A DNA stretch of 42,124 nt. Origin: Chromera velia. Taxonomy: Eukaryota; Sar; Chromeraceae. Position numbers and translations under genes: made by a program. Every line of letters begins with the position of its first letter. The stretch's first letter is position 1. The DNA is taken from NCBI GenBank assembly GCA_018398765.1, contig JAHBMJ010001964.1, positions 65,045 through 107,168 on the forward strand, read 5' to 3'. Shown here one piece after another: positions 819 through 41,763 of the stretch. Under the pieces are notes generated by a model, which worked only from the letters and a program-made list of their open reading frames with translations, was not told the origin of the DNA and ran no database searches.

Positions 819-2577
819 TCACATCATGTCAGGATCGGGTGATGGGGACCTTTTCCTCCTCTGCCTCTCTTTCCTTCTAACCCTCTGCCTCTTGAAAGGT
901 CTGTAGTGAGGACCGTTTCGGGCTCTGTGGGGGAAGCGGACGGGAGATGGCACAAGAGAGGAGGGGGCAAACCCGGGATCCCCTTTCTCCAGATATTCAA
1001 TCGTGGGAGCTTTTCGTCGATACGCGGAAAGGTCACTGGTGGGACACCGTCTCCAGGCGTAGTTTTTGTATCCGAAGATCGCCTCCTGCTTCGGCCGAGC
1101 CAGAAGGTATCTGCATTCCATTGTCCATTCACAAAAAAGTAAGACATTGAAGACGTTCAATAACATTCAATAATAGAAGCAAAGTGGTCTTACTATCACA
1201 AGCAATAAAGGCGGTCAAAGTCATCCAAACTATACGCCAGCCAACAAGGAGAAAGGGCAGGAAAATGCAGAGCGCCCAGTCAACCAGACAGAGATCCAAA
1301 GAGGCACGGAAAAAGGCACAAAGAAACAGTCAAAATGTTTCCAGACAGACAGACTGTATGTTTCTTCTTCAGACAGACCATATGGTTTCTTTCCCTTCTT
1401 TTCTTCATGAACACAACAGACAGACAGGCAGACAGGTAGACAAACAACGGAACGGAAATACTCCAGGCAATTTAGGCAGGAGCTGCGGGTCGAAAGACGC
1501 TGCACACCGACAAAACTGTACTGAATTAATCGGCGATCAAGCCATCGAATAATGTGAGCGAGCGCCTGTTTCCGTGAGGTCTGTCCAAGGTTCCTGAGAG
1601 GACACATGCAGACGTCTCTTCTTTTGAGTGTGTCTGTTTTCTTCGTCAAGTGGTGCTTACCTGTCCTTGCCCATATGCAGAGCGATGATCTCTCCCACCG
1701 AGTTCTCGCTCATAAGGAAACTCATGAACGCAGCGAGAGCTCCATAGGGGCCTTCCATCTTCATCGCCTTGTCGTAAAACTCAACGATCACTCTCCTCTC
1801 GGGCTCCTGCAGGGAAGACAGGAACTTTGTTCTTCGACATAAATGCACACAGACAGACCGACAGACAGACAGATGTAGATACCAAATCACTTCGATCGCT
1901 CAATTGAAACCACTTAATTAATTCTCCTGGCCGACTGAGTGCATGCCTGACTGAGGGAATGCAATGAGTGCTGACCGACCGATGCCTGATCCCAGTCGAC
2001 CACCCTATAGTCGGGTTCAATGAACAACCACAGAGCGCTCCGACCCGCCGCATCAAACCCCCACCAGTCGAATCCTCTGCCAAGCTTTCCAAGCCAGTTT
2101 TTGTTCACCTGCAGGGGGGGAGAAGAGCAGTCACGCGGGAAGGAAGCAAACAAAGAGAGGTTGTACATCACGTAACCAAAAAAAGAACAGACCCTGCTGG
2201 GAGACGTGAGTGAGTGAGTAAGCGAGAAAATAAACCTTGGAGGGAGTTTATCGTTGGCACAAGAATGAAAGAGTGGACAGACGTCAACCTTGAGGAAACG
2301 ACGTTTTCCCCCACCCTTTCTTTCCCTTTTTTACCCTTCCTGCGCAACCCGTTGCTCCCAATCCTCCCCTTGCACTTCACAATAGATTTGTCAACTGCAT
2401 CAAAAGTGAAATTCCCCACTTCCACCCACACACCCACCTTCTTCATCTTGGAGAGCTCTTCCTCGTAGTCAAAGAGGAACCTTAAGGAGTCTTCAGAGAA
2501 ATCAAAACCTGGACACATACACACACACACACATAGAGAGAGAGAGAGGGAGAGAGAGAGAGAGGGAGGGAGAGAGG

Positions 2578-2630
<53 letters not shown>

Positions 2631-3944: not shown

Positions 3945-4009
<65 letters not shown>

Positions 4010-4972
4010 CACGACGCAGCCCAGCCTCGCTGTCGCTCTCTTTCACCCACAACAGGTTTCTCCGCAACAAGGCAACAAAAGAAAACCGCCATCCCTCTAC
4101 AAGCGCCTTCACTAACACAATTGAATCATCCGGAGAACAACACACAGAAAAGAGCACACAGACAGACAGAAAAAAGAAAAGAAAAACAGACGTACCTGAG
4201 GGAGGAAAGAGGAGTAATGAGGATTCTGCCACCACCAGTTGACCAGCCAATTTGCATACGACTTGAATTGGGCCCCTGCAGAATGTGCGTGCCACATTCG
4301 ATGGATTGAATTATACGAAGAAAAACATTTTTCTGGCCACTGCTGGTCACAGATGCAACACAAACTAATAGGAAGAGGGGACGTAAAAAAGACGTATCAG
4401 TCGGCAGACATGCTGAAAGGCAAGCCGAAAGAGAAAGCATGGAAAAGGAATCAAAGAGACAATGAGGGAGAAGAGGAATGAGCCAAGAGAGGAAGTCAAA
4501 AGGACCCAGGGGACAGAGAGAGAAATCGATGCAGAGAGAGAGAAACAACGAAAGAGGAATCAATCCACCTTCTATTCTCTGGTTGCGCTCATGCCGACAC
4601 ATTACTCCTCCCTTCCCTCACTCAACCCTCCACTCACTGACCCGTAATTGTCCCAACGTTAACCTGTCCCTGCCAGTACTCTCTGTCAAGAAAGTCCTCT
4701 ACCTGATCGATGCACATGCCGTTTTTTCCCGAACAAACAGGGAAGAGAACGGAAGGGAAGGGGAGGTAGAAAGGAGAATGAAGACCTGAAACAGCAAAGA
4801 CTAATTTCGCAATGAAGAAAATTGTTGCGTCTGATTTCAACCAAATCTAAAAGAAAACCCCCCAAAACCCAGTAGTAGCCCTCGCAATCCTTGCAAGGAT
4901 TCAGTCCCTTTGACCAACGAACCAACGAACGAATGGACCGACAGACAGACAGACAGACAGCCAGACAGACAG

Positions 4973-5035
<63 letters not shown>

Positions 5036-5050
5036 GCCAGCCAGCCAGCC

Positions 5051-5090
<40 letters not shown>

Positions 5091-5173
5091 TATATTGTCT
5101 TTTCTTCACTTCACTTTTTCCGACAGACAGACAGACAGACTATATGTTTCTTCTTCTCCCTTCTTTTCTTCAT

Positions 5174-5217
<44 letters not shown>

Positions 5218-6771
5218 GCCAGACAGACAGACAGACAGCCAGACAGACAGACACAGACAGCCAGACAGACAGACTATATCGTCCTTGAGACAGACAGACA
5301 GACAGACCTGCAGCCAGATGTCGGCGTTCCAGGAGATCCGAGGAGGGTCCACAGAGAGCTCTGCCGGCAGGCCCTGTCCATTGAACCTGCGGGAACCATC
5401 AAAAAAGGTGACGTCAAAAGTGGGGTCTTTAGTTCGGGGGTTGAGATCAGACTAGCCACTGAAGCGCTCGGGGATAGTCTGGGAAGGAAGAGAAATGGAG
5501 AGAAAGAAAAAGTGGAAAGAAAGCGCATGCGTTTTCCGTCCGTGATTGGGAAGGAGGGATGGATGAAAGCAATAACGGAGAGGTCACAGCGCTTTTTGAT
5601 GGGCGTACCGGCCGGAGACTGAACGAAAAAGCTCGGCTCACAAACAAACAGAGAAAGACAGACGCAAGACAGAGATCAGGGAGGCCGAGGGAAACACTCG
5701 AGAGGGAGGAGAGGCGTCCAATTGTCTGTCTGGCGTGGCAGTTAAGGAAAAAAAGGGAAGATCATTTCTCTTCACAGGAAAGTCTTTGAGAGCCGCGGGG
5801 GAAGAGCAAGTGCAGAGATCGGATGGATGGATGCACAGGTTCGTTCAAGGAGAGACAGGCCCGGGGAGAGTGGGGGTGATTGACAGACACAGACAGGAAT
5901 ACAGGTCCGTTGACAGGAGGACAACCAGAGGGGCACACGCACAGGCGAACAAGCAGAGAGTCTGCAAGATAGACGGACCAACATACGACTGAGAGAGACG
6001 AATCAGCAAATCCATGTCGAAAATGTTCATGCGCGCACCAGGTTCTCACTGACGGGTTTCGTTCAGACGTGAAGCGAGAAGACTTCCTCTCTTTCTGAGC
6101 CAAGCCAAAAGCTATACTGATGAACATACAGCTTTGCCAGCCGACCTGCAGGCGTTCATTCCGACGACTGCCCACTCCCCTTCTGCGTCTGCCGTTCTTG
6201 TTTTTCGATGGAACCCGAGGGCTCCATGGAACAGGCCCTTGAACCTGTAGACGAAACGAACAACCTGCCCATTACTCTTCCCTCCGATTGCCTGCAGGAA
6301 GTACGAAGAGAGATCACCCTGGCTTCAGCTTCTTTCCCCCCTGAGACGGACGGGAAACGAACACCCAGACGGAAGCGCAAGCAGAATGCAAGGCACACAG
6401 ACGATCTTTCGACTCACCCCCGTTAGGGCATAGACAGAAAGTTCCTCGTCGTCCTGCAAATATGGGAAGACTGAGACCACGTCCTTCCGACTCGTGATGA
6501 CGTTGTAAGGGCTCCAGAGTTCCACACGAGTCAGGGAGTTTTCAGAATTGAGACAGAAGATTTCGGACAGTTGGAACGAGTCCGGACAAAATGAATGCCA
6601 CCGCCTTTCATTTTCTGATCTAAAATACTTTGCGTCTGCCTTGACCTGCCTTGGTTCAGGGCAGTCACGGTGGTGCCTGGGGCCTGTGGGATCCCTCGCA
6701 CCCCCATTTTGTGCAACAGAGAGAGAGAGACTCAGAGCCCCAGCAAAAAGCGCAAGCAACGGGCGAAACAT
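819..6771 (-). CDS. Gene A: secreted protein of unknown function, 11 exons
   Basis: I do not recognise the family. Exons on the minus strand: 6418-6771, 6054-6145, 5308-5386, 4869-4907, 4642-4702, 4196-4275, 3331-3709, 2438-2508, 1980-2108, 1661-1806, 819-1110. All junctions are GT-AG and keep phase, giving 573 residues from ATG 6769-6771 to TGA 819-821. Residues 1-20 (MFRPLLALFAGALSLSLSVA) look like a signal peptide. The mature part has a CKDC motif, a tryptophan-rich segment (NWLVNWWWQNPHY, about residues 217-229) and a second aromatic block (GRGFDWWGFD). Exon 7 (about residues 236-361) is a charged, probably disordered insert with KRKRRKR and acidic runs. The C-terminus is strongly basic (KRQRVRRKERQRRKR). 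No membrane segment other than the signal is clear. Exon 4 (39 nt, weak GTTTTG donor) is the least certain. It is divergent from gene B. Confidence 0.72.
2515..2645. repeat. (CA)n-(GA)n-(GACA)n compound microsatellite
   Basis: A compound simple repeat lies just upstream (in transcript sense) of the exon 8 acceptor of gene A: CA repeats, then GA repeats, then about 16 GACA/GACG units. Read in the sense of gene A it is pyrimidine/GT-rich (TGTC, TC, GT) and could serve as an extended polypyrimidine tract before the acceptor at 2509-2510. Confidence 0.9.
3928..4012. repeat. (CA)n-(GA)n microsatellite in gene A intron 6
   Basis: CA dinucleotide repeats followed by GA repeats, between exon 7 (3331-3709) and exon 6 (4196-4275) of gene A. 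In transcript sense this is TC then TG repeats. Confidence 0.9.
4937..5311. repeat. Large interrupted (GACA)n array in gene A intron 3
   Basis: About 375 bp of GACA/GCCA tetranucleotide units interrupted by T-rich cores (GACTATATTGTC... near 5089 and GACTATATGTTTCTTC near 5138). Its right end runs directly into the 5' splice site of exon 3, so in transcript sense the intron begins GTCTGTCTGTCTG right after exon base 5308. The open frames seen in it (TDRQ/CLSV repeats) are translated microsatellite, not genes. Confidence 0.92.
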
Positions 6772-7342: not shown

Positions 7343-10300
7343 ATGTTTCTTCTCGGAGTTGTGCTTTCAGTCTGCTGCGTCTCGCTTGCCACTTCGCAAA
7401 GTGCAGTGCTTCTGCAAGCGCGGCAATGCGCAGTGCAAGAGCGCCACCCGCTTCACCTTGCCTCTCATGAGATCACAGGTTTCTACCACCCCCAGGAAGG
7501 CGTCCTTCCTCTCGACACGCAGGGCCGTCTCCCTCCCGCCACCGTGGCTTTGTCTCGCCGTCTCCTTCAAACAGAGGCAGACAGATCCCTTCGGGATACA
7601 AGAGAGGCAGAGGAACTGCAATCCCGACTGTACAATATCGCAGACCTTCAATACGAACTGATTGTCACTCTTGGAACTCCTTCCTCTCCTTCCCCTTCTC
7701 TTGAGGGAGACCCTCAGGTCCAATATGTGACCGTCATTCCAGACACTGGCAGCGCAGACTTTTGGTCGGTCTTCCCATTTCCTCTTCATTCAGTCACTTG
7801 CTCCTTCTAATTTCGTCCTTCAAGTCTTCTCATCCTGCTTACTGCCTGCTTCGTCAGTTGAGTTTGTGTGCTTGGTCTGTATGTGCAGGGTGCCGGGTGT
7901 GGAGTGCACCAACTGCGGCGCCGCCCACACATACGATCCCCTGAAGTCGAAGACCGCCAAGAGAGTAGGAGACCAGAAGCTGATGCAGTACGGAGATGGC
8001 ACCGTTGGTCAGTTGGAGGAGAGAGAGAAGAGAAGAGAGGAGGAGAAAGAGAATTTCTGTCGGCAAACAATCCCTCTGTTTCTTCTTCCGCCTTTTTTCT
8101 TTTTTTATCTTTCTGGTTTCTGCCGCCTTCTTACTCTTTCTCCAACTTCGTCTTCTCTTTGTCTGTCGCTCCGTCTTCCTTTCTCTCTTCCTTCGTTCCT
8201 TTGTATGCGTGAAAAAAAGAAGAGAAAAACAACCATCGTCAGTCTGTCGACCGAGAAGCACTTTCCTGCAAATAATTCTTGCAAAGAAAGACACCACAAT
8301 GAAACGAAACACCCAGCGTGTCAGTCTGTTTATTTCCCTGCCTACCGATTGTCCAGATCGCCAGATTGATCGCTGGATCACCTGAAGGTGTTTCTTTTCC
8401 ATCAACAGTCAATAGCCTGTTCCACCGCTTCAAGCAACGACGCAAGAAACGCGGCACAAAAAAATGAGAAAATGCATCCATCTGCTGTCATACTGACACA
8501 TTCTGTGAGTGCGTCTCCTGATGCAGCGAGAGGAGAGACATGGATCGAGACGGCGAGAATCCCTCTGGGCAACCCCGTGAGAGAGATGGGACTCCGCGTG
8601 GGGGCAGGCAACGAGACGATGCGCGTCTCCACGGATATTCCGACAGAGACAGCAGCACCATCATCCTTGGCCTCTTCCTCCGCCTCTTTGTGGGGTGTTG
8701 AGGGTCCGGAGTCTGAAAAAACAACAGCGACCAGTCTGGAGGTGCAGAACCAGTTGGTTGTCGTCCTGGTTGCTTACACGTCCCGAAACGTGAAGATGGA
8801 GTCGGACGGAATTCTCGGTCAGTTGATTGGGTGCTTGGGTGGATGGCCGCATTTCTTTCGTTCAAGCTCCCTCCTCTGATTTGTTCCAACCCACTCTTGA
8901 GGAGTTCTCGCTTGTCGTAGAGAGAATCCGAGGAGGAACTGTTTGACTGAGCTTGCTAATGGGATGGAAGGGATGGATACAGGTTCGTTGCGCACGTTGC
9001 TGTTGAGTTCTGCGAAGGTCTGTGTGCAGTGCCGCCTCTTGTGTTTTTATTCTCAATCCTTTCTACATCCTCCCGCTCTTCTCTCCTGCTCCATCTTGCC
9101 TGTCTGCCTGTCTGCATGCATGCATGCATGTCTGCTTTCAGGACTGGCGCGATTCCAGGAGGGTACAGAGAGGGGGGAGAGGGAGGTGTGCTTCATCGGT
9201 CAGTCTTTACGCAGTGTGTGTCTCAGTCCGCCTCTGGATGCCCGGTTTCCTGCATTATCTTTCGTTGTTTCTTTCCAGAAGCTGTCCTGTGTCTCTCACG
9301 GTCCCTGCTTGAACACAAAGGTTAAAGAGCAGAGATCTGCTGCTGCATTGTGACTGTGTGTCTTTTTCTTTTGGGTGAAAAAACAAAGGGAGAGTCTCGG
9401 GGATCAATTGACTTCCTCTGGATTCACTCAGTGGGGGACTGAGTCACTGATGTCGTCAGACTGTCTGTCTCTCCAAGGAGAGGAAAGGAAAAGAAAGGAA
9501 GAAGAACAAGCATGAACATCTAGGCTGTCCCGTGCGCGTTCGGGTGCGTTAACTTTCTCCCTCTTCTAGTCTCTGTGCATTTCTCTCACTTTCGGATCTT
9601 CTCTTTTTTTGATCTCCGTCTCTCGGATCTTTTGTTATAGCGGGTGGTTCACTTCGTTTCCTTCGATCCTTTTCCTTCCTCTAACGGCTGCTTGCAGACA
9701 ATTTCTTTCAGCAACAAAAGGATGCAGGACTGAAACCCCAATTTTCACTGTACCTCAATTACCTGAAGAAACAGAACCAAAGGAAGGAGACGGAGACCGA
9801 GGGGGATTTGTCAGAAAAGGACAAAAACAATGAGAGCCCCCCTGCAGCAATGTTCTTTGGAGAAGCAGGTAGGTCGGTCGGCTTCACGTTATGATTAGAA
9901 AGAACTGTAGAGACAGGGCCACCCTCACTTGTCTATAGGCCGAAGTTGATGATTGGTGGGTCAGTGCAGGTGAGGGATACATGACACGAGTACACGATAG
10001 AGTTGCCGATGACTTTCCTTCAGCCTTCTGCTGGCTGATTTTTTGGGCTATCTTTTTTCATTCACTCAGACTCTCTTTGAGTCTTCTGCTGTCCTTTTGC
10101 GAATTCCGCTAGGTCCCCTACCAAAACTTTCTTTTTCGCCTCCCTTGCTTATTCTACTCTCGGAATGTTCGTCTTCCATCTGCGCGTGGATGTATGAACG
10201 ACTTTGTGTGATTTGCCTTTCTGCCTGATTGACTCCCGGCGTGCTTGACTGCATGCATGCAGACCTCGGCACATTTGTGAAAGAGGAGACCCGTCTCCTT

Positions 10301-11661
10301 GCGCCGATGGGGACTTCTGAAACGTCGCATCTGTGGAATGTGAAGGTGAAGGCTGTGGGTGTGGCCGGCCAGGAGCGTCTACGATTGCCATCCGACGCAC
10401 ACAAGAAAGAAGGAAAGGGGAGTGGCGGGGGGGAAGGCGGTGAGGGAGTTCCAATGATGGTGGACTCAGGTCTGTCTGTCTGTCAGTCAGTCGTTGGTAA
10501 ATACATAGTACTAAGTTTTGTTTTGTTCTTTCTTTCTTTCTTTCTTTCTTTCTTTTCTTTCTTTCTTTCTTTCTTCCTTGCCTTGTTGCTCTCTTTCTTA
10601 CTTGCTTGCTTTCTTGTACTGTCATGAGATCAGTAAAGAGAAGAAGAAAAAAAAAAGCCGGGCTGGAGTTGGTCGAACTGCTCTAGAAGGTGACTTCTTC
10701 TCCTTTTTTCTGCTCTTCTCTCTTTCAAACTTTCAGGGAGCTCCATGTTGGTTTTGGAAGAACCTGTGTACGAGTATGTGGTGAGGGGCTTGGAGAGGAG
10801 CGGCGTCTGCGGAAGGACTTCGAGAGGGGTAAGGTGGGGGGAAGGGGGGGCGGATGCAAGGAGAGAAGAGAGTGGCTCCTGTGATAACATGCGAAGAAGC
10901 CTTCTTGCTTTAGAAGCACATGTAAGCGAAGGTGGAAGAGCGGGGAGGAGGAGAAGAAGAAAGATCTATCGCTCTCTCTCTCTTTCTTTTCGCGAAAAAA
11001 AGAATGTGTATCTGTGCGTGCGAACACATACACGTTGCCAATTGAACACACTGACACAGCACTCTACCGACGAAACAAGAGAAGGGGGGGTGCAGGAGAC
11101 TTGTGTGTGCAGAAAAATGAGGTAAGGAGGGTAATAGAGAAAAAGGCAAACCCCCTTGAGTCACACAGAGGGTCAGGAGAAAGCAGAGATCTATCCCAAG
11201 GGAACGAGGCAGACAGACGAGGACTCGAAGACTGCAAGAAGGAAAAGAACCTTGAAAGGCATCTCAGCAACCTGTGGATTTCCGCAATCAGAGCGGGAGG
11301 GGGGAGCGGGGATTTCTGCATTTTGTTCCTTTCTAAGCACGGTTTACGCTTCGCCTTATCCATCTTCCCATTCGTCTACCTTTTTGTCTACCCGTCTCTC
11401 TCTCTGCCTTGTTTCTTTTTCTTTCGTGCTCCTGCAGGTGTTCTGTCAGTGCCCGTCCTTAAGTGAGAGGCACTCAATGTTTGTGCGGTTCCTGTCGGGT
11501 GACTGGCGTTCGTTTCCGACTCTGGACTTTGAGGTGGAAGAGCTTCAACAAGAGGAAGGCAAAGAACAAGGAGGGGGGAGGTTCTGTTTGGATGCGTCAG
11601 AGTATGTGATTGAGATCGTCACATCTTCAGGTGTCTGTGTCGGACAGCTAGGTCGGTTAGC

Positions 11662-11699
<38 letters not shown>

Positions 11700-11784
11700 G
11701 TGTGTGTGTGTGTGTGTGCGTGTGCGTCAGGAAGAGAAAAGGAGAGTTCTGTTGCGCGGAAGTTCTACTGCTTGATTGTGTACT

Positions 11785-11825
<41 letters not shown>

Positions 11826-12784: not shown

Positions 12785-12815
<31 letters not shown>

Positions 12816-14106: not shown

Positions 14107-16545
14107 TCAGGCCGATTCACCTCTTCCATCCTTCACAAATTTACAATCTTGTGCATAATGCCCATGCTGCTGGCACACTCGGCAGAACGCTTGCTCTCCT
14201 GACGCTCCTCTATTGGCAAGCAATTGGGAGTGCTGAATACCTGCCTGGTATTTGCTTGAACTCTCCCGACGGAACTTCTCGAAATCGTCGTCTGCACGTG
14301 AAGCCATCGCACCCAGACCCATTCGCTCCCCCATTCCCTTCTGCAGAACGGTGCCGTCCTCTGCAACCCCGGCCTCTGCCTGTGCCCATGCAGTGGGACG
14401 TTCATAATCCTCACTCATCATTCTCATTTCCTTATTTCTGTTGTACCTCCTTTCTTCCTTCTCCCGCTCCCTCTCTCGAGAAAGAGAACGAGACCTCGAA
14501 CGACGGCGGACACGTGAAGGCTCTTCGTCCCTCTCCATGTCTCTGTCTCTAGTTCTCTGTCTTCTCCCACCCCTTTCTTCTTCCTTCTCCCGTCTTTCTC
14601 TCTCTTCCTCTCTCAGTCTCTCTTCCTCCTCCCGCTGTCTCTTTCTCTGTTCTTCTCGTTCGATCCTTGTCTCCAAATCCCGCAAATCCTCAAAGAAATC
14701 TGCCAGACGCTCTAACTGAAGTTCGGACGGGGGCTCATACGGAGGAGAGGACTGGGGGGTCAAAAGGGGGTCAAGCGGTCTGTAGGGCACAAATGCGGTC
14801 TGCAAATTTTTTCCTCGTTTGCTCATCTCACGGAGCATTGTTGCCATCACCCCCACAGGTACTGACTCGGGAGTCTGTTTCTCCCCTACCTGTTCCTGAA
14901 ACCCCCCCGCATTCATACCCACACCACCACCCGCGTTCATGCCCCCCATGGGATCACCCCCCCACATGCCCGGAGCAGGAGGCCCCCCATGGTGCAGAGC
15001 GTGGCCCCCCATCTGCATCGCTGCCATATGAGGAGGCATAGGTGCACCCCCCATCATCATAGGGCCAGGCCACGCCCCCCCCTGTGACATTGCTGCGGCG
15101 TGCTGGTGATACATCTCCGGATGCATCGCTGCGTTGCCGTATGTCATTTGTTGTTGCTGCTGTTGCTGCTGCTGTTGTTGCATTTGTGCAATGAGAGCTT
15201 CGGGGGCGAGAGGTTGGGACAGAGAGGAGAAGGTGTTCGAGGGAGCCTGCATGGTATTCATCGTCGCAGGGGGTGAGGCGGCATGAGACTCTACCCCCTC
15301 CATTGGACCTGCCTCTGTCTCGGCACCTGCCCCTTCGGCTTTTGCAGGCCCGTCAGAGAAAGCAGAGGGAGGGTCAGGCGAAGGGGAGGGGGCCGGTGGG
15401 GCATGGGGAATGGTAGGGAGGGTTTTCTGCTCAACCACGAATTTCATTTCTGCTGATTCGTAACTGTCAATCAGACCCATCCTCTCCCACTCTCTGAGAG
15501 ACTGCGTCACAGCCTGCTTCAAATCGTCAGAGGGAGGCATCATCGAACCCCCCCCCCCCGGGTCCTCCTCGGGTTTCCAGTACACAGACCGGAGGATCCA
15601 CAGGAGAAAGGGACGGAATGACTGACGAAGAGCAGCTGAACTGCCTGAAGACCGAAGCGCTCCGTTGACCATCGCAAGGATGTTCAGACGATGTCTGTCG
15701 TCTGATATTGACGACAGTGTCTTTCTAATTCCTAACGCAATTTCTTTGACTGTACTCTGCTGACACTCCAGCCACATGGTTGCTTTATCGACTGACTCCT
15801 CAGACAAACCACCCCCTCCCATTTGAGGTTGGAGAGAGTCGAGAACATCTGAAAGTTCTTTCTGAACTTCTGGGCTGATCTCCTGTACAGGAGGTTCCTG
15901 ATAAGAGACCAGGAGCGCCTCCAGGTCATACTCTATCTGAATGTCCATCTCACCCCCCCCCTCTGGAGAACTGCCGGGTTGAGCAAAATGTGACTGAGCA
16001 CCAGGAACGGAGGAGGAGGACGAAGAAGGGTCCCCCTGAAAGGAGGAAGACGCCCCCCCCTGCACCCCCACTGATCCCTGCCCCCCCTCCGAATGAGGCA
16101 CCAGGGATGCGCCGTCCGTCCTTGGCGGCATTCCAGGCGGAGGTGGCGGTGCGAATCCTGGGGGCACGGCCTGCTGCTGCTGTTGCTGCTGGGCGTTCTG
16201 TGCCCCCACGGGGCCGAGGAACCGTTCAGCGCAAGCGCCGGGATCTTGCTCCCCCACGGAGAGACAGTAGCGACACCAAAGGAAGTATTCTGCCCCCTCC
16301 CCCCCGAACATAAACTGAAAAAGAGGATTGTGAGCCTCCTTTGATCTGGTGGAACTCTCAAACATAGGTCCGTTCTGCTGACAGAAGCGTGCCACCGTCT
16401 CTATCCTCTGCCTAAGAACTCCATCACTTGGAGGCTGGGCAGGTGGAGCAGGAGGCTGTTGCTGTTGCTGGTGCTGCATTTGCGGGTAGACCCCATGAGC
16501 CATGCCCATGTGCCCCCATCCCATGGGTGGTTGTTGCCCCCACAT
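14107..16545 (-). CDS. Gene C: SURP / CID-like / RS / zinc-knuckle splicing-related protein (CHERP-like)
   Basis: An intronless 812-residue frame from ATG 16543-16545 to the stop at 14107. Residues about 43-95 form a SURP (SWAP) module: IETVARFCQQNGPMFE and NPLFQFMFGGEGAEYF match the family pattern in CHERP and SF3A1. Residues about 220-330 resemble a CID (RNA polymerase II CTD-interacting domain), with KATMWLE and LNILAMVNGAL as the helical core. Between and after these are poly-Q, Pro/Gly/Met-rich and Ser-rich linkers. The C-terminal third has a long Arg/Glu coiled-coil, an RS stretch (RRRSRSRSLSRERE) and a CX2CX4HX4C zinc knuckle (CRVCQQHGHYAQDC) close to the end. SURP plus CID is the arrangement of CHERP, a U2 snRNP-associated factor; the terminal zinc knuckle is not usual there. 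Likely nuclear, in pre-mRNA splicing or 3' processing. Confidence 0.82.
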   Translation of the reverse strand: MWGQQPPMGWGHMGMAHGVYPQMQHQQQQQPPAPPAQPPSDGVLRQRIETVARFCQQNGPMFESSTRSKEAHNPLFQFMFGGEGAEYFLWCRYCLSVGEQDPGACAERFLGPVGAQNAQQQQQQQAVPPGFAPPPPPGMPPRTDGASLVPHSEGGQGSVGVQGGASSSFQGDPSSSSSSVPGAQSHFAQPGSSPEGGGEMDIQIEYDLEALLVSYQEPPVQEISPEVQKELSDVLDSLQPQMGGGGLSEESVDKATMWLECQQSTVKEIALGIRKTLSSISDDRHRLNILAMVNGALRSSGSSAALRQSFRPFLLWILRSVYWKPEEDPGGGGSMMPPSDDLKQAVTQSLREWERMGLIDSYESAEMKFVVEQKTLPTIPHAPPAPSPSPDPPSAFSDGPAKAEGAGAETEAGPMEGVESHAASPPATMNTMQAPSNTFSSLSQPLAPEALIAQMQQQQQQQQQQQMTYGNAAMHPEMYHQHAAAMSQGGAWPGPMMMGGAPMPPHMAAMQMGGHALHHGGPPAPGMWGGDPMGGMNAGGGVGMNAGGFQEQVGEKQTPESVPVGVMATMLREMSKRGKNLQTAFVPYRPLDPLLTPQSSPPYEPPSELQLERLADFFEDLRDLETRIEREEQRKRQREEEERLREEERERREKEEERGGRRQRTRDRDMERDEEPSRVRRRSRSRSLSREREREKEERRYNRNKEMRMMSEDYERPTAWAQAEAGVAEDGTVLQKGMGERMGLGAMASRADDDFEKFRRESSSKYQAGIQHSQLLANRGASGEQAFCRVCQQHGHYAQDCKFVKDGRGESA

Positions 16546-17279
16546 TGTCAGGTGCCCTACAAGGAAGGAGAGGGGCGAAAAGCAAAAATTCGACCAGTCT
16601 CCTGGAGACGGACTGAAGTCACAAGGAGTCTTTCAAAGAAAAAGTATCAGACCGAAGCAGTTTTGCGAACAACAACCTTTCCTTTGATCGAGCACATCTG
16701 CACTGCATGGATCATGGCACAGAAAGCAGTCAGCGGAATAACGCCGGAATTCAAATTTCAAAGTCACTGAGTGCTTCCTGACACAGCGGGAAATTCGAAT
16801 TTTTGTGCACGTATACGTTGGCGATGCACCCCGCGCGGCCCCGGCCCGCGCGAGATCCCCCGGCCGCGCGCGGCCGCCGCGGTGACTAGCTCCGAACAAT
16901 CATTGAATCTCACCTTAATTCAGACGATCGAACTGATCCTCCCTTCAAATTTCATGTCTCTCCTAAGCTCAGAGTTGAGACCTGACAGTTCATTCATTAC
17001 GGTTGCGTACCCAATCAAGAAGCAGAGAGGACGACGCCCTGGCTTCTGGAGATCGCTGTTCACTTTGGAGTCGCTCACAGCGGTCTACGTACGTGTGTAT
17101 CTTCAATGTCCCAACAGACGGCGTCCATCTGTCCGTCCATCTATTCAGGAGAGGTCAAGGGACATCACAGTCATCCCCTTGTAGAAGACCTTATAGCCAT
17201 CTGAACGAGAGAGATACTGGCAGTTTCTCGCTTTGGATCTGGCACAATCTATTGAATAGTAGGCGCCACATTTACAGAT
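16546..17279. promoter_or_regulatory. Divergent promoter region between genes C and D, with GC-rich palindromic island
   Basis: This 734-bp spacer separates start codons 16545 (minus) and 17280 (plus). Near its middle, 16829-16882 is almost pure G+C with overlapping GCGCGC and GGCCGCGCGCGGCC palindromes, while the flanks are of ordinary composition. No TGCATGCA occurs here. CTAAGCTCAG near 16966 and the end of the spacer show no clear TATA box. A shared bidirectional promoter is an inference from geometry and composition. Confidence 0.45.
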
Positions 17280-20200
17280 ATGGGTAGCAGTCAGTCTGTT
17301 CCATCGTCCTGCACCGCGATGGAGGTGGAGGCCTTCTCCGACGCTTTGATGCGGGTATGTAATTCCCCTCCTTTCTTTTCCCGAGCTCTTCTGCATTGTC
17401 CTTTTGACCCATGTCTGTGCATGTCTCTCTTCATGTAGGGACACAAATTCATCCGGGTTTATATATCACGGCTGTTTTCTTAGTTTGCTGACGCAAGAAT
17501 ACTCATTTGGATTGTTGCTGCAGCATCACGGAGGGGAAGAAGCGGAGGTTCTGCACAGACTGCTGGTGAAGGACGTGGAGATGTGGGACGATCCTTCGTA
17601 TCTCTCTTCCGCAGAGGCGTGGGAGCAGCTGCAGGAGGAGGCAGCCATGTGCGTGTTCGAGCGGGCACTTTCGTTCCTCTCCCGCCAGGCGAAGAGGAGA
17701 TCTTCTTCTCTCTGGAGCGCCATCGCATCTGAGTGGCAACGCGTGGCACAGCAAGTGGCTCTAGATCTCTCTCCATCCCACGACAAGCTCATTCCCGTCC
17801 AGGTCCGTCGGTCGGTGTGTTCTGAATAGTATATACCACGTCGGATTGAGTAAGTAAACTGTCAGCTGCATGCTGAAATGTCCACCGGGCTATGGTGGGT
17901 GATTGGGGCCTGGCATGGACAGATTAATGCAATGCACTCGTCCTTCGTGGCTCCGTGCAAGGAAAATAGTCGACGCACGCAAGGACGCATCGATGCGTCC
18001 TTGCGTGCGTCAATACACTTGTCCTTCGTGGCTCTGTGGAAGGAACTTGTTGGCTCGTCCCACATTTGCCTGCATTAAGATATATACAGTTTCGGCTCTC
18101 ATACACGCATGCGCCTCATTCAATGTATGGCTCGCGCCCGTCTATTTGTCTGCCTGTTGTGAAAGCAAAAGAGAAGAGAAGCCAGGGAACAAAAAGTGTG
18201 GATCATTTCTCACCACAGACAACTTTCTTTCCTCACTTTCCGTCTGTCTGTCTGTCTTTCTGTATGTATCTCTGCCTGCAGAGTGTGTTGGGGTCCCTAG
18301 AGAATTTTCCCTTGGCGGCGTCGGAGGGAGAGGAGATTTTAAGAAGCCGTCTGATGGCAACACTGAAGACGAAAATTTCGAACGAGACGTCCAACTTGAA
18401 GGGGATCCAGCCGGTGGGTGCCTGGGTGTGCATGAAGAAAGGAGGCTGGGGAGGGTGGGGAGAGAGAGAGGGAGAGAGAGAGAGAGGGAGAGTGAGGAGG
18501 GAGTGAGGCAGGTGAGCAAAGCCGATTGGTGCAATTGAGGGTCGAATGAATTTCAGGACGTCCGCACCCCTGATTCGTCGGCGTGGCTGCTGATAGAGTT
18601 TCGATCAAGCTGGCCTTCTAGCACCATCCGTTTCCGATCTAGGAGATTTATTTGATATTGATGAGCATTTCTCCCTTCCACAGAGATTCTAGTCACTTCA
18701 CTCATGCAGGCAGGTTTGCACTTATGACGTGGGTCTCGAAATGTAAAACCACAGTTTTCCTTTGCCCGTTTAGCTATTTTTACTATCTTCCATTGCTTGT
18801 GTGTGTGTGTGTGTGTGCGTGTGTCCCTGTGCTCGCAGATCAGGGGATGTGAAGAGTACGCAGAGGTCCTGCAGAGCCTCACTCACTTCGGGATTGGCAG
18901 GGTTAGTGAGTGAGTGAGTGAGTGAGCGAGTGAGTGGACTACTGAAAGCAAAAAGGAGCCTCTTCCTTCCTGCGCTTTTCCCGTTTCGTCCTTCTTTTCC
19001 TTTCGATTCTTTCTTTGCGTCTTTTCTTCTTTCTTCGCCCCTCTTTCCTTCCTTCCTTCCTTTCTTCCATCCCTCGTTCGTTCCTTCTCCCTCTATGCGT
19101 TTATTTGTTCGTGTGTCCCTTCTACATGTGTTTATTTGTTTGTTTGTGTGGCGTCCCCTTGCAGAACCTCCATCCCTTTCACGTCTATCCTGTCGGTTGT
19201 GCTCTCTGCGTGCAATTCCTCCCCCCCCCCTCTTCTTCTGCTTGCAGGCTTTTCTCTCGAGAGACCCCCAGATTCCTTTCGGCATTAAGTTACAGGTCGG
19301 TCGGAGCATCAGTCAGTCAGTCTCCGGTCTTTCGATCGGTCTTAGTTCGTTCTGCGTCTTTGTTTCCTATTTGATTAAATGAAGGAAGAGATTTGTAGGA
19401 AGACGCGGGGTGGTTCTTTCTCCTTTCGTCTACTCGCCTGCCGAGTATCTATCTCCTCTGCTGTCTCGTCTGGCGCTACACGAAAAGTCTGTTTGTGCCG
19501 CTGCATTTTCTGCTTCGCAAAACACATGGACAGCAGTCGACAAGAGAAAGATCGAAAGTCTTGCTTGGGTCACTTTCTGGATTGCATACCCAGTCTGATC
19601 GAATTCTGCGCTTACATCCCCCTGCGTGCACTTATGTCGACCCATGCACCCCTCTGATGCAAACACAAGTCTCTCTGTCCTCTTTATCATTCATTCTTTT
19701 CCTCAGGGCCCTCCTCCACTGAGCGCCTACCTCGACTTCTCCACGAAACCCCAAAATGGTCCCTCGATCTGCCCCCCCCAACTAGTCTTCAAGCACGAGG
19801 GAAAGGGGGGAGGAGGAGGTTCAGGCAGCAATCCCCTGTACCCCCTCGGCAGCTGTCAGAAGAAACCTCAACAAGGAGATGAGGAGGAGAAAGGCGAATT
19901 CTATTGGAGGGTGCTTCTCGGTCTTCTGAGTCTTTTTGAAAAGAGCAGCGGAGACGGAAATGTAGAAGAGGGGGGGCGCGGCTGTACGCGCGCACCTCCC
20001 GCAGGAGGAAGATCCAGCCGCCCCCTCCCTGTAAGACCGTCGGTGCAACTTGAAACCATCTACTCGCACTTTTGTGTGCGCACACACAGAGGATTCCCAC
20101 CGTCCCAGGGGGTGAACGTACTGGACATAGTCCGGAGAGCAGAGGCTTCTGTTCCTTCATCTTCGCGCGTCTCTTCCCCTCCTGCACGTTCTGCTGTGCC

Positions 20201-23144: not shown

Positions 23145-23179
<35 letters not shown>

Positions 23180-23184
23180 GCACG

Positions 23185-23232
<48 letters not shown>

Positions 23233-24963: not shown

Positions 24964-26009
24964 ATGGATGACGGCGACATCGTGGGTTTGACCGAGAAAG
25001 CTGTGCTCACTTTTGGTGGTAGGTGTGCAAAGGGTGGCGAGCTGCTTCGGAATGAGCTCGGCATCGACTCACTCGACTTCTGCCGGCATGCGTGCCGTGC
25101 CGAACGCTGCTGCACTGCCGCGACATACCACGAGACCAGTCGTCAGTGCTCTTACTTTCGAAGATGCAAAGTCGAAACCACTCAGGCAGCAGACAGATGG
25201 GCCATTGCGTTTCCCAACAGGGGCCCTTGCGCCCGTGAATTCGTTTACGGGCAGCCTGACTTTGGGGCGGTGTTTGTGAGTGCCGTTGTGGCCGCCGCTG
25301 GTTGGGCTATGCTCTTCGGGTTGGTCCTTCTTCCTGTTCTTCGACGGTTTCTTTTGCGAAGGCGTTTGAAAACGAAGGGGGTCGTGGTGGATTGTGTGCT
25401 TTCAAATTTGAGGGAACCGGAGAGACTCGATGAGGAAGAGGAGAGATTCGACATCGGGGCCTTCCAGAAACACCAGCCGTGCACTCTGGACGTTCATTTC
25501 AGTGTTCCTGTCAGTGGAGAGGGGGAGGGAGGGGGGGAGGGACAGCTGCATTTGGACGTTGAGATGGTCTGCCAGTCTGTGTCTGAGGAGGCATTCGAAA
25601 ATATCAGAAACAGGGTGGACCTCTCAAGGTCACAGAAGAGGAAAGGAAGAGAGATCTGGCAGTTTACAGTACCAGGAAAAGTCATCACAGACCCAGCAGA
25701 TCCTCACAGGTCAGTTCAAGCAAGGAAGGGAGGGAGGGAGGGAGGGAGGGAAGGAAAGACAGAAGGACTTTGTGGGAGCCTTCGACTGAGAACTGATGCG
25801 CACAATTTTTCCTAATCAGCGTTCCAGAAAAGTGCAGGCGCGTGAGACCAAAATTATCTCTCAGTCAAGCGAGAGATGCTCACCTCAGTGTCTGTATTCT
25901 GACCCCAAACCACTCCGAGCTTTTCAATTTCTCTCTCTTCCCCTGGACGAAAGTACGACCCTTTTTCTGCGAATTGATCTATCTTCGTCTTGATCTGTCT
26001 GTCTGTGTA

Positions 26010-26044
<35 letters not shown>

Positions 26045-30109: not shown

Positions 30110-31886
30110 ATGTCCGGACCCGGAAGCAATGGAAGAGACATCATTGCTTCCTGCATAACCCCCTCGCTCTCGAAATTGATCTTGGATTGTAAACTGCTCC
30201 AAAGGATCGAGTACAAGAGTAAGAACCCGCATCGCACAAGAGACTATTTCTGTGCACTCAAAAATGTGAACCGTCACGCAGCCTTCGTGTTCTATCTCGA
30301 AAGTCTCCTTTCTACCGCTGCCTCTGGAGAGCCCCCCAGGTTGATCCGCGTTTCCAAAGACCTCTTGGCAGGTTTCGACCAGATGTCGAAGAGCATTAAG
30401 GTCGCGGGAACGTTGTTCTCACATCTGATCAGACATGACTTTTTTCTCCCTTTCTCTTTGAGCGTCTTCGCCTGCCTTAGCCGTCTCCACGAAGTCCTCG
30501 AACAAATAAAGAAGGGTCTCCGTGCGCTCTGTGCTCTTCGAAAAAAAAACGAAGTGCATACGGAGAATCCTCAAGGTTCCATCAACTACACTGCCGAAGT
30601 GCCCCAAAAAGCTTCGAAGAAGACGAGAAGTCCAGAGAGAAACATGCAAAACCCCGTAAGCACACTACCCACACAATTGCAGTCCGTGCTGCCGCATATT
30701 GCCAATCCGAAGGCAGAGCCCCTGGAGAGGCCGGAAGGGGACTCCGATGATGAGGGCGAACCTGTGGGAGACGCTGAGACGGCTGCTCTTCTCGCAGCCC
30801 TGAGGGGGGNNNNNNNNNNNNNNNNNNNNNNNNNNNNNNNNNNNNNNNNNNNNNNNNNNNNNNNNNNNNNGGGGGGGGGGGGGAGAGTCCCGGGGAAACT
30901 CAGACACAGACACGGAAACAGCAGCAGCAGCAGCAGCCTCAAGCAGAAAACCCGAGGCCCCTCCTGCATCCCTACCCCCTCTTTCTTCTTCTTCTTCTGC
31001 TGCTGCTGCTGCTGCCGCCGTCTCCTCCCTTGAGATGGTGGCAGAGACCGACGAGGGTGTGGCACTGAGTCTGCCTGCAGAGAGGCCGTTTGTCTCTTCT
31101 GCTGCGGGCATCTCCTCAAGCGATGGATCGCGGCTCGGGTTGACTGCGTTAGGGGGACCCGGCAGCATGTCGTCGGAAGTTGGAGAGACATGCATTTCAA
31201 AAGGTGGGGCGGATTTTGAGTTTGGTTCGTTTGTAGAGGAGGGAGGAGTCGACATCGAAGAGAGGCCGGGGAACCGGGATTCAGAAGCAGAAGAAAAAAA
31301 AAGAGACCAGGAAGAAGAGGAGGGAAAAGGAGAGCGGACTGAAGTTGAAATGAATGATCTGCAAAGCAAAAGGAAGAGAAGTCAGGGGGGCGAAATACAT
31401 CCAGAGGGGAGAATGCTGTCGGGAGGCAGAGCAGAGATGGAGGAAAACGGTGGAGGGGGATCATCAGCTCCTGAGCACGCCCTGGTGGTGATGTCGGATG
31501 TGGAAGGAGACGGGGACGTTGAGATGGAGTGCGTCCGTGAGTCGCAAAGGTTCTCAGAGGCAGATTCTCTAGGACAGAGGGGTGCAGAGGGAGAGACCCA
31601 AGAGGCCCCTCAAAAGAGGGAGAGGGGTGCTGCGGGAGGTCCGCGGGGACGCAAGCAAGGGAGGTCGTCTCAATCTCCGAATGCCCGATTTGGACTCTTG
31701 AAGAGACCCTCTGAGACGTCCATTCTTCCCGCAATCAGGCGCCAGATGTGGATTCGGTCAGGTCTTTCCAGAAGAGGGCAGTTTAATGGGAGTCGTGGAG
31801 GATTGCCCTCATCCTTCAATGCGATCAGAACACTCACACTAAAAGAGCTGCGAGATCAGCTGATGGCAATGCAAAACTCAGACTAA
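30110..31886 (+). CDS. Gene G: NEPRO/RMP1-like nucleolar protein, interrupted by assembly gap
   Basis: Intronless as far as seen; ATG 30110 gives MSGPGSNGRD, stop at 31884-31886. Residues about 15-130 carry CKLLQRIEYKSKNPHRTRDY and FCALKNVNRHAAF followed by helical repeats, which resembles the N-terminal domain of NEPRO (nucleolus and neural progenitor protein) and RNase MRP subunit RMP1 (signature: short helix, YK/RNxNQHR-like motif, helix). If right, it acts in rRNA processing in the nucleolus. After residue 233 comes the run of 61 N; the frame beyond (RGNSDTDTET..., Ser/Ala-rich, acidic and basic tracts, ending LKELRDQLMAMQNSD) is shifted against the frame before it. The true gap length must then be a multiple of 3, not 61. 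Poly-A and poly-Ala/Ser trinucleotide runs flank the gap. Confidence 0.58.
30810..30870. other. Assembly gap (61 N) inside a poly-G tract
   Basis: A run of 61 N is bounded by G6 on the left and G13 on the right. The gap probably marks an unsequenced G-rich or Gly-coding repeat in gene G. Confidence 0.98.
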
Positions 31887-37500: not shown

Positions 37501-40500
37501 CCCGAGATGTTTCTGGTTGTAGAACCATCTGCGGATGATGAGGGTTGTGCAGGGGAGAGCGAGGAGCAAAAGGAAACAGAATGAAAAGAGAAGAAGCCCA
37601 TAGTGATTCCAGTGGAAAAATCTGTTGTCGTGTCCTCAAAAATAAATAAATGAAACCTTGTGGTGCCAAGGCTAGCGCGTGCGTTTCTTTTCAAGTTTTC
37701 ATGCCCACCCATCCACCCACCCTTTTATTGAAGATCGTCACGAAGTGTGTGGTCGTTGCGTGGACTTCCTTCACAATCATCAGAGGGAGGGAGTCCACGC
37801 TTCCGCCCAACACAGAGACTCTGCGTTCAATCACGCATGCAGCAAAAGTGGAAGGCAGTTCAGAAAAGGCTACTAAGAACACAGGAGTACTTTGACCAGA
37901 CTCCTCAGAGAATTTGTCGGAACACTTCAGCAAGACGAGTAGACAAAAGCGCCAGCAGCAGCGACAGACAGATAAGACAGGGGCACGGAGACCGACTGGC
38001 TGACTGACAGACAGACGGGCAGAAAGACAGGAGAATAACTCAAAAAAATGGAAGCAAACAATTCTGAAAGCCAGAAGTGGAATTCGTTCTTTTCCCACCC
38101 ACTCCCTCAAGTCATCATGAGGGGCAAATAAGCCAGCCACCATACAGCCATCCAGACACACGGCGACGTTTAGACAGACAGACAGACAGACTCAAGCAAC
38201 ACCAGCGGGGACCGTCGATCTTCCCTCTTTTCCGACCTGTCTCCGATGTCGAACGGATGTTGGAAGAAGAGGAAAGCCATAGAATCAAAAAGATTCCGGC
38301 AGCTGTTACCTGCGCAAAGAAGGGGAAAGGAAAGCAATTGAGACAAACCTGGTGAGGTGAAGCCGATCGCTGACAGACAAGAGGAAAACGGCCCGGATGG
38401 GCACGGGGCAGAGCGAGAAAGAAAAGGGGTATGGAACGGACAACGACGGAGCGAATTTAGAAAGACAGGGAAGATGGAACAACGAAGAAAGAAAGATAGA
38501 TGGATAAAAAAAAAGAGTAAAGCAAGATTTAGCATGCAGTCGCAAGGACTTTCTGGAGGCTCACCGACGCAGGAAAGTCTTGGAAGCAACCCGTCACGCA
38601 CGGGGTTTTGTCGAATGCTTGCACAACGTCATTCACTTTACCAGCCGACCAAGCAAGAGTGGAAGCGTTGAAAAGAAGAGAAGATTCAGCCTCGAACATG
38701 ACGTGTTGGGAGGCCAAACGAACCGAAAGCAAACGAAATTGAAGCGACAACTGCCAGCATCGGCACGAGAACCTGAGAGAAGTCGACACCGGAAACGATG
38801 AGTGCGATGAAGATTGTGATCACCCACAAATTGCACCCGAGCATTTGCCTCACGAGACTGGTGATGCTGTCGAGGGACTGCAGGCAGGCAGGCAGGCAAA
38901 ATCAGGGAGGAATCAAAAATGAAGGGACCGCAGTTAAGTACAAAAACGAGGAGGGTGTGCTGGTGCTTTGGGAGTAAAGTGGAAAGATTAGACATCCACC
39001 TCTTATTCTTTCTCTGCTTCATCCTCACATCGGTCTCAAGGGGAAGAGAAGACGCGGAAGGACTGAAGGTGTCAATTCAAGAAAAAACAACCCAACAAGA
39101 CAACGAAGAAGCCAAAAAATGCCAGGAGCAACCTAGCGAGCAAAACCCCATGGGGGGGGAACCGGAGCACAGCGAAGAATTGAGAGAGACACGGTGCCCC
39201 GAAGACCCTGCCCTGCCCTCAAAGACAGGCCACTCAAACGAGAGAGAATGCTGTCACTCTTCTAACTACCCCTCAACCGCAAAGAAAAAAAAAACTCAAA
39301 CTGACGAGAATGCTTTTGATGATGTTGTTCCGTTCGAAGTGAAGGAAAAGAAGTGACCGTGCGAATTTGACGTAGGAGACCCGACCACTACCTGAACGCA
39401 TTTTTTCACATATTTGGAGAGTGACCATCTCCACATAAGAAGGAAGGAAACAGAACAAGGCACTGAACAACTCCGAGATTGAACACCCACTCGCTTTCGC
39501 TCAGTTCCGAAGCAACGGAGAGAAGAGAGAGGCGTCAGCCCCTCACTAGAGAGACCCACGCGGTCCGAAGTCGGTTGGAAAGAAAGTACGCGTGTGTCTT
39601 GTCCGCACTGACAAGGAGTGCGAGGACATGTTTCCACTTTTTCGTCTCTCCCTTTTCTCTCTCGCTTATACAAACACGCATGCGCACACACTGACCGACT
39701 CTGCTTCAACAATCCTTTGCTTTTCCAAGACGGACAGAGAAAAAAACACATTCCAAAGGGAGAAGACAACCTAAGAAAAACAATCAAAAACGGACCTGTG
39801 TAGTCGAATGCAGCCATGACCTCCTCCGCCTCCGAGGGCGGCAGGAACATCTGGAAGGTTGCCAGCCAGATGTACTGCCCGCACATGGCCGCTTGAAGTC
39901 TCTGCCTCTGGGAATTCTGACCAACACTACCGTCCGACCCTCCGTGGGATCCGTCTCCTCTCCCTTTCAAGCCCCTTCCTCCCCCCCCAAAGCCCATCCC
40001 CACTTTCTGGAGCATTCTTCTGGAGACATCCTGCAATTGGATGATTGTGGGCTGCATCAAATGACCATTGGGGACAGAAGAGCCTCTGTGCTCAGGAATT
40101 GGCAGTGCTACTTGGTGAGTGGAGGCGGCTGGGGCAGCGGCATCGGGGGCGGACGAGCTTCGACCTTTGTGTTTGAAAACTGACCACCCTCCTGCTCGCC
40201 CTCTGTGCTGCTGCTGCTGTGGAGTCATGCCTCGTTGCGAAGACTGACGTCGTAATCCGGCACCTGCATTTGGACCTTGAGGGGGTGCTTTTGAATTTCG
40301 ATTTTTGTTTGAATTTTTGAATGGCCAAATGCTCTGACGGGGCCGTGCAGCTGCCGGGGTCGACATGTCAACGGAGCGTTTCCGGCCGAGTTGCATGGTG
40401 GTTCCTCTGCCTAGAGCCCCCTCTGCACTGTGCTGGGGTTCTTCCTGCATGTTGGGCAGTACTCTTGTTGAGGGTCTCGGTTCGATGGGACGGGCGTGGT

Positions 40501-41763
40501 CCTGTACGAGGCTCGTGGCTTCGGCGTGGGAGAGGGGGCTGAGGTCCATGGGAGGGAGGGGAAGGTCATATCTGGGGGAGCCGGCTGGGGACCCTGAGGA
40601 GTCATGGGGAAGGGGTAGGGGCTGACCGTTGATTGCTGTAGTGGGAAGGATCAGCGGAGCGGGGGCGTCGGGCCGTGAGAGACCTGGTTGAACAGGGCTG
40701 GTGATCTCGGCGGGAAAATGAGCAACTGCCTGCTTTGTGTGTGCGAGGTTGGCCAGTGCTGTTGCTGCTTTTTGAGTTTGCTCTGCATTTTCGGGGGAAG
40801 ACTGCGGTACAGCAATTTCAGGTTCTGCAGCAGGGGCTGCGGGAAGAACTAGTACGTCAGTGTCTGGATCGACAACCAGTGGGGGGGCGGGAACTTCGAT
40901 AAGAGTTGGAATGACGGTGGTGGGGGCAGCAGCCGTGGAGGAAGCAGCGGTAACGGTCCCACCGACACCTCCAGCAGGAGCAGGAAAGGCAGACGGATGA
41001 ATGTCTCGTGTCACTTTCGGGTTTGTTGGGCCTTCACCTGTCCCCCTTCCCGTCATGTCCAGTTTCTTTGTTTCATCCTGTTCAAGTAGAATGTCTGCTT
41101 GTCTTTGGACTTCGTTGGCCAAGAGGGCGTTGAAGAGATGGGGTGCAGCAGCGAAGGCGTCCCTTGATCTTTTGATTTGAAATTTTCCTTCTGCAATCGA
41201 GTGCGCATTTGTGCATACATCGGTTCTGGAATCCATCTCGAGAAACCCGCAGAAAGTGGAGAAGCAACACAACTAACGACACAGGTAGGAAGACAAGACA
41301 AGGAAAGCAGATCCCCCAAAAGATCTCTCTCAGCCAGAAACTCCAAAACAGATATGTCCTTTCTTTACGCAAGCTGACTGATTGATGGAAAGATATATCG
41401 CTCATACAGAGGGGAGTGGAAAAAAGCGGGGAATTGCGCACACCAAGCAAAGCCGTTGAAGCTTTTCCTCCTACCGAGAGAAGGCAAGAAGTCTAGGGAA
41501 AGGTCTCTTATCGTAATGAATTATGGGGCATTCACGGATTCGAATGCTCAATCACACATCACTCACCGCCTATAAAGATTGTGAATTGCGACCCTCGAAT
41601 AGTATTTCGGATCTGCCACACGTCGAACGTCGGGCTGTCCTGTGCCTTCTCTGGGTCGAGCAGCTTGACGAACGACTTCGAGAAGTTGGCCCCCTTGATC
41701 AACCGTCCGGCTGACTGGAGCTTCTCTTTACTCGTATGGACGGTGGTGTGCCAGTAGATCTTG
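34545..41763 (-). CDS. Gene H: MscS-like (MSL) mechanosensitive ion channel, 5' end beyond window
   Basis: Exons on the minus strand: 41567-41763, 39796-41190, 39392-39462, 38724-38877, 38237-38309, 37721-37820, 37502-37528, 37192-37311, 36534-36715, 34545-35886; phases agree, 1219 residues in the window. The pattern follows plant MSL4-10 channels: GQYIWLATFQMFLPPSEAEE (MSL: YIYxxDFMRFL.EDEAE), LWVITIFIALIVSGVDFSQV and AFGNSCRNLFDSMAFLFFQ then HPFDIGDR (MSL: FESxxFLFxxHPFDVGDR). Beyond these come IVKEVHATTTHFVTIFNKR, VIIPNFELGR, VKFDTPPEKL and HMDIWVTHRLGWDRW (MSL: VWVTHRMN). It gates ions in response to membrane tension. Oddities: a Pro/Ala/Ser/Gln-rich insert of about 400 residues in exon 39796-41190 and a 420-residue disordered C-terminal tail, acidic at the very end. 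N-terminal membrane segments should lie past 42124. Confidence 0.85.
36085..36182. repeat. Interrupted (TGTC)n with GA-rich core in gene H last intron
   Basis: Two blocks of TGTC/CAGT units flank a GA-rich core whose reverse complement (GACTATATTGTCTTTTCTTTCC-like) matches the cores in the gene A arrays near 5089 and 5138. In the sense of gene H it reads GACA, opposite to most arrays in the window. Confidence 0.75.

Follow-up and report, generated by a model that had tools for sequence, protein, structure and literature searches.

A purine at intron position +3 belongs to the textbook consensus of the 5' splice site, where it is read as a requirement of U1 snRNA. The window considered here, the whole analysed stretch of 42,124 nucleotides from Chromera velia, raises the question of whether C can take over this position, and by what route. 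The first-pass annotation of the window, based on 38 introns called by eye, had proposed that C is the commonest base at +3, in 18 of them, and that G at +5 is retained, in about 34, implying weakened U1 pairing, a changed U1 5' end, or greater reliance on +5 and U6. Here we report an analysis of the candidate donors of the window, of introns placed by protein homology elsewhere in the genome, and of the splicing RNAs and factors that would recognise them. The reading that we favour, at a probability of roughly 55%, is that these are ordinary major-class (U2-type) introns, the donor consensus of which has drifted to AG/GTCAGTC (outside brackets, a slash marks a splice junction) through slippage and a homogenised array, with C at +3 being tolerated.

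Donor candidates in the window

All 13 donor hexamers cited in the first-pass annotation were found in the window at their position and strand (13/13). Three of them lie on the plus strand in an aspartyl-protease gene. Splicing of the intron at 7765..7888 (donor TTTG/GTCGGTCT, acceptor GTGCAG/G) yields DTGSADFW/VPG inside the PF00026 match; the intron at 8008..8526 (donor GTTG/GTCAGTTG, with the acceptor GATGCAG, a TGCAG-type one picked out of several open acceptors) yields YGDGTV/A, a junction inside the same match; and the intron at 8818..9141 (donor CTCG/GTCAGTTG, acceptor TTTCAG, again picked from several open ones) yields DGIL/GL. The spliced piece scored 55.9 bits against PF00026 with matched residues 53-116, covering the junctions at 7765 and 8008, as against 11.1 bits for a control in which exon 1 was read through its donor, with ten stray residues outside the match. 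A search of exon 1 against PDB gave no match. The junction at 8818 is based on the DGIL/GL motif, which is typical of aspartyl proteases. At the level of predicted protein, the three C+3 donors at 7765, 8008 and 8818 fit the homology. A further plus-strand donor, TCAG/GTCTGTCT at 10470..10475, is the first unit of GTCT GTCT GTCT GTCA GTCA GTCG and follows MMVDS, presumably the second active-site motif of the protease.

The sequences of eight other candidate donors were confirmed. On the plus strand these are CCAG/GTCC GTCG GTCG at 17803..17808, ACAG/GTCG GTCG at 19296..19301, ACAG/GTCAGTTC at 25710..25715, and ATCT/GTCT GTCT at 25997..26002, the exon side of which is weak; on the minus strand they are ATCG/GTCG GTCA at 1974..1979, ACGG/GTCA GTGA GTGG at 4636..4641, ACCC/GTCA GTGA at 6048..6053, and ACAG/GTCC GTTT at 39790..39795. 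The remaining minus-strand candidate, GCAG/GTCT GTCT GTCT GTCT GTCT at 5302..5307, heads a tetranucleotide array that TRF places at 5174-5307.

The presence of GTCNGT alone is weak proof of a donor, because the window is full of CTGT/GACA repeats: GTCTGT occurs 173 times on the two strands together, and 588 of 1586 GTNNG have C as their third base. Tetranucleotide arrays of the GACA/AGAC/TCTG kind are plentiful (4936-5090, 5174-5307, 2579-2639, 12785-12815) and belong, like the intron starts described below, to the GTCN type. The window also holds a run of N at about 30811-30873 (61 N in the window) with G-rich flanks, an assembly gap within an apparent reading frame. Finally, a single open frame at 14107-16632 on the minus strand encodes a SURP/SWAP-type protein of 812 residues with an arginine-serine-rich C-terminal part, which is possibly a splicing factor itself; a search with this protein, in which the 7985 candidates sharing most words were scored, returned the protein itself and one weak match.

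Base composition of homology-placed donors

The genome sampled (177.8 Mb, 4040 contigs) has 58 matches to the chlorophyll-binding family PF00504. Introns were collected from it with a spliced profile aligner whose sole demand was GT...AG, which left +3 and all later positions free. The kinesin search gave 134 exon matches; kinesin loci comprised 34 fetched regions and the search loci L017 and L043, and introns that passed the filters came from 34 of these. Minus-strand loci among the search loci L016-L045 were left unturned and gave no model, and they and most of the others duplicate fetched regions; L018 (contig C45), which is no such duplicate, was left out of the count, as was L044, a duplicate of L066. 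Further kinesin contigs among the search matches lie outside the sample. For CCT, 30 introns came from five genes, each with one external PDB reference sequence, that of CCT alpha being devoid of part of the middle; matches on contigs C745, C775, C1653, C2636, C2658 and C1137 lie outside this sample. Each donor was banned in turn and the alignment repeated to obtain a donor margin, and introns were kept with a margin of at least 10 half-bits, a YAG acceptor and a length of at least 50 bases. The combined set holds 128 predicted introns (98 kinesin, 30 CCT) from 39 of the loci L017, L043, L046-L079 and L081-L085. The kinesin profile is partly self-trained, since it was rebuilt once from 14 sequences later realigned to it, and the CCT introns depend on external references only. 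Margins of about 13-15 amount to one gap opening, and this penalty alone stands against an alternative donor located 12 bases deeper in an array.

In this set C is indeed the commonest base at +3, with 69 C, 31 G, 20 A and 8 T, or 54% C (95% CI 45-63%; locus bootstrap 95% range 45-62%). The kinesin introns had 51 C, 22 G, 18 A and 7 T at +3, with +4 A in 53, +5 G in 93, +6 T in 72, +7 C in 55 and -1 G in 82 of 98, and the CCT introns had 18 C, 9 G, 2 A and 1 T, with +5 G in 29 of 30. Retention of G at +5, the second part of the earlier claim, holds in 122/128. Purines occupy +3 in 51/128 (40%, 31-49%), far below the 85% line that the first-pass annotation had drawn. GTCNGT outnumbers GTRAGT among the donor hexamers by 47 to 18, and the commonest kinesin donor octamer is GTCAGTCA (11/98). 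The donor and acceptor consensus of the 128 introns is AG/GTCAGTC...TGCAG/G, with C at +7 in 70 donors and a strong acceptor (T at -5 in 101, G at -4 in 95, and C at -3 in 124, YAG having been imposed).

The composition changed with the filters as follows. Under the strictest cut, a donor margin of at least 20, kinesin donors had C in 23/50 and a purine in 26/50. With the margin filter off and YAG kept, +3 read 71 C, 35 G, 25 A and 10 T in 141 kinesin introns and 26 C, 11 G, 2 A and 2 T in 41 CCT introns. Thirteen non-YAG introns with a margin of at least 10, from an earlier stage, had 5 C, 4 A, 3 T and 1 G at +3 and G at +5 in five, and when the donor dinucleotide was left free, 103 of 188 best donors had GT.

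These counts bear on the possibility that donors were mis-called inside GTCT/GTCA repeats. GTCNGT is very common in the repeat-rich window and the original introns were eye-called, as such an artefact would have it; however, the homology-placed donors were found with no preference at +3, in two gene families, and C stands at +3 in 41/85 donors outside repeats, and we consider the artefact most improbable.

A second alternative, that a mobile introner family brought the GTCAGTCA ends, draws on the rank of that octamer and on local similarity with E of 1e-3 or better in 47 pairs among the 128 introns. The similarity is partial, though: identity is 69-77% in the longest pieces of the 25 best matches (231, 224, 171 and 138 bases), and the matches look repeat-driven, because several fall at many offsets of one intron. 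C at +3 occurs at intron positions shared between paralogues (19/47) and at unique ones (37/70), and at shared positions the +3 base interchanges. Judged on this small sample, introners appear very unlikely. From the same paralogue counts, shared-position introns were rejected or given low weight as the sole source of C+3; the lower share of C at shared than at unique positions also tells against the reading that we favour.

By its sequence the set belongs to the U2-type class: introns are GT-AG, as imposed in their placement, with a conserved G at +5, and the U12-type donor RTATCCTT, with C at +5, is not reflected in them (C at +5 in 3/128). The U2-type trait that is lacking, a purine at +3, is a consensus preference and no condition of the class.

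The C excess relative to its surroundings

In the repeat-masked genome, GT is followed by A in 13%, C in 32% (0.322), G in 30% and T in 25%. Compared with these masked GTN, donors have an approximately 1.7-fold excess of C (p = 5e-7); they are poor in T, and G is not enriched even though U1 could form a wobble pair with it. The excess persists against masked genomic GTNNG (C 0.354, p = 3e-5). Within the same introns, GT at offsets 5-40 is followed by C in 44% (p = 0.23 vs donors), and against GTNNG at these offsets (C 53%) the kinesin donors show no difference (p = 1.0); 100-400 bases into introns, C follows GT in 31%. The C at +3 therefore largely mirrors its immediate surroundings, nearby intronic GTNNG being as rich in C. 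The unusual feature is the failure of the donor to exclude C at +3.

A GTCN array at the intron start

The surroundings have a structure of their own: at the intron start lies a degenerate (GTCN)n array that keeps a 4-base register with the splice site. In 94 introns, 128 GTC starts at offsets 4-44 fall in the donor register, as against 5, 13 and 12 in the other three; the exon side has no register (17, 15, 11 and 18), and the 30 CCT introns repeat the pattern more weakly (19 vs 5, 10 and 4). Counted by intron, a GTC in the donor register occurs between offsets 4 and 44 in 53/98, compared with 6, 11 and 11 for the other registers. This repetition of GTC down the intron is our main lead to the origin of C at +3.

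When the first unit is compared with the second (where +5 and +6 are GT), C is equally common (69/128 vs 50/88, p = 0.68), A is commoner in the first (20/128 vs 5/88, p = 0.03) and T is rarer (8/128 vs 15/88, p = 0.014). Selection at +3 persists but is weak: with the second unit as the baseline, it shows as a preference for A and an avoidance of T. Among 69 kinesin GTNNGT donors, +8 is a copy of +4 in 31, compared with 19.2 in shuffles (p = 0.0012), an excess that points to tandem duplication. Duplication in its simple form does not account for everything, because +7 shows no clear copying of +3 in these donors (30/69 vs 26.7 for shuffled sequences, p = 0.18) and because C is also frequent at +7 when +3 is A or G (24/51). 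After GTNNGT the next GT is rarer at donors (19/64) than inside introns (177/362), so donor arrays are no longer than repeats elsewhere. In kinesin donors without C at +7, +3 is still C in 20/43 (p = 0.05 vs 0.322), and some preference for C at +3 that is independent of the array may exist. Among the open-literature titles listed for tandem donors and microsatellites, none was relevant.

The array could itself be a functional element, serving U1 as a landing pad in several registers or binding a splicing factor, with C at +3 as part of the motif. Such a role is suggested by the density of GTC, which is 63 per kb at offsets 4-20, drops to about 20 per kb far inside introns and is raised on the intron side only, and by the 70/128 donors with C at +7. 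Yet at offsets 8-44 an in-register GTC is present in only 34/98 kinesin introns, and similar repeats occur elsewhere in introns, which makes a functional array unlikely.

Splicing RNAs and factors

A changed 5' end of U1, one of the implications raised earlier, found no support. The genome has one full-length U1 copy (79.3 bits), which begins with AAACUUACCUG, and a second copy, with its 3' end missing, starts in the same way, making 2/2 copies that keep a 5' end. The pattern ACTGACCTGGCTGG, representing one possible U1 5' end complementary to C+3, has two genomic matches, and Rfam finds U1 in neither; the search is blind to a U1 with a very different body, to RNA modification and to editing. 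Position 2 of U1 is A (AAAC) instead of the U of the Rfam consensus (L001 1501-1655, L002 1501-1629), but it would face intron +7. A changed U1, or a divergent one pairing with C+3, is accordingly given hardly any credence here. Pairing with U1 or with U6 does not account for the C at +7 (70/128), A2 of U1 being no partner for C. Three of five U1 DNA matches have no 5' end (L003/L012, L014, L015), outnumbering the single full-length gene; they are probably pseudogenes.

U6 has ACAGA at 7/7 loci and exact ACAGAGA at 6/7, the remaining locus (L009 1501-1608) having ACAGAGT, and loop 1 of U5 is CGCCUUUUACUAAAG in 2/2 matches. U1 with ACUUACCUG, U6 with ACAGA and U5 loop 1, which make up the hallmark of the U2-type machinery, are all present here. 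Loss of known factors was rejected or given low weight in three cases: SNRNP27K has one genomic match (87 bits), whose C-terminus with ...YRQYMNRKGGFNR... we take to hold the M141-equivalent residue, a METTL16 type has two exon matches, and LUC7 has two matches on one contig.

With a canonical U1, the suggestion that C+3 weakens U1 pairing is borne out at the sequence level: the mean predicted U1 duplex of kinesin donors is -5.2 kcal/mol with C+3, -8.4 with A+3 and -9.0 with G+3. Judging from base counts, this loss is not compensated at the other positions that match U1, A at -2 occurring in 34/69 C+3 donors vs 33/51 A/G+3 donors and G at -1 in 58/69 vs 44/51. Greater reliance on +5 and on U6 at C+3 donors is plausible: G occupies +5 in 67/69 of them vs 48/51 A/G+3 donors, and C+3 would face G44 of U6.

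One alternative is that C+3 is positively selected, donors being committed mainly via U6 and a pair between C+3 and G44 of U6 (human numbering) replacing the lost U1 pair. It would draw on the canonical ACAGA at all U6 loci, on G at +5 in 67/69 C+3 donors, and on a preference order relative to genomic GTN of C, A, G, T, where that of U1 would be A, G. Passages of PMC11732430 describe the interaction of A or G at +3 with G44 as weak, and passages of PMC9803359 place contact between +3 and G44 in later complexes. The U6 helix would be lengthened by T at +4, which occurs in 9/52 donors with C+3 vs 3/42 with A/G+3; the direction agrees with the prediction, but the numbers are small and confounded by GTCT repeats. 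Against positive selection, C is not enriched relative to the second unit of the array or to nearby GTNNG, and in 98 kinesin donors C+3 brings no gain over G+3 in the predicted U6 duplex (-2.41 vs -2.39 kcal/mol; A+3 -1.84). We regard it as doubtful.

A model for the drift of the donor

In the favoured reading, drift through slippage with C tolerated, the donor GTNNGT would act as a 1.5-copy seed of a GTCN array, and replication slippage would extend and homogenise such arrays into the intron, a proposal that leans on the abundance of tetranucleotide repeats in this genome. Pressure from the array would keep rewriting C into +3, and weak selection there would fail to purge it. C at +3 would be tolerated because selection at this position is weak: U1 may bind through -2..+2 and +4..+6 around the mismatch, and after hand-over C+3 could form a Watson-Crick pair with G44 of U6, where A and G interact weakly. 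A bolder version, which we put forward only tentatively, is that at +3 the donor has come to follow the logic of U6 in place of that of U1, the U1 pair being lost and the U6 G44 pair gained, and that a microsatellite growing from the splice site renews the C, with donor and repeat evolving as a unit.

Comparison with known donor systems

C is not known to be the commonest +3 base in any other eukaryote. A genome that combines canonical U1 and U6 with C at +3 in about half of the donors provides a natural test of which RNA, U1 or U6, determines this position. Gene finders trained on GTRAGT are expected to miss such exons. Donors that head phase-locked tetranucleotide arrays offer a link between microsatellite mutation and the evolution of splice sites that can be tested directly. 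The open literature on Chromera or chromerid introns, splicing, snRNA and GTCAGT donors, with subscription papers and supplements outside its scope, gave no account of this consensus. The Chromera genome paper (PMC4501334) describes an assembly with much low-complexity repeat; its main text has the word 'splice' 0 times and 'intron' 6 times, and its RNA-seq-supported gene models may hold the consensus implicitly.

The canonical U2-type 5' splice site is (A/C)AG/GU(A/G)AGU, as given in part of PMC3488318. The Chromera donor is like it in the GT start, in G at -1 and +5, in T at +6 and in the canonical U1, and differs in that C rather than a purine is commonest at +3 (69/128). In the two-class U5/U6 model (portions of PMC9803359 and PMC11732430), +3 lies opposite G44 of U6, so that its identity bears on U6 strength; C+3 as a Watson-Crick partner of G44 is not mentioned in those portions of text. 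The switches from +4 A to +4 U in Saccharomycotina, which according to a section heading of PMC10581693 have no associated compensatory change in U6 or U1, are similar as a lineage-wide shift of one 5' splice-site position. There the position is +4 and here it is +3; METTL16 and SNRNP27K are linked with the fungal switch in the title of that paper, and METTL16-type and SNRNP27 domains are present in Chromera. The non-canonical introns of dinoflagellates (PMC7789003) and tunicates (PMC13326754), as described in parts of those papers, likewise have shifted donor rules. In those introns GT itself is altered, whereas in Chromera GT is kept and the shift lies at +3 (and +7).
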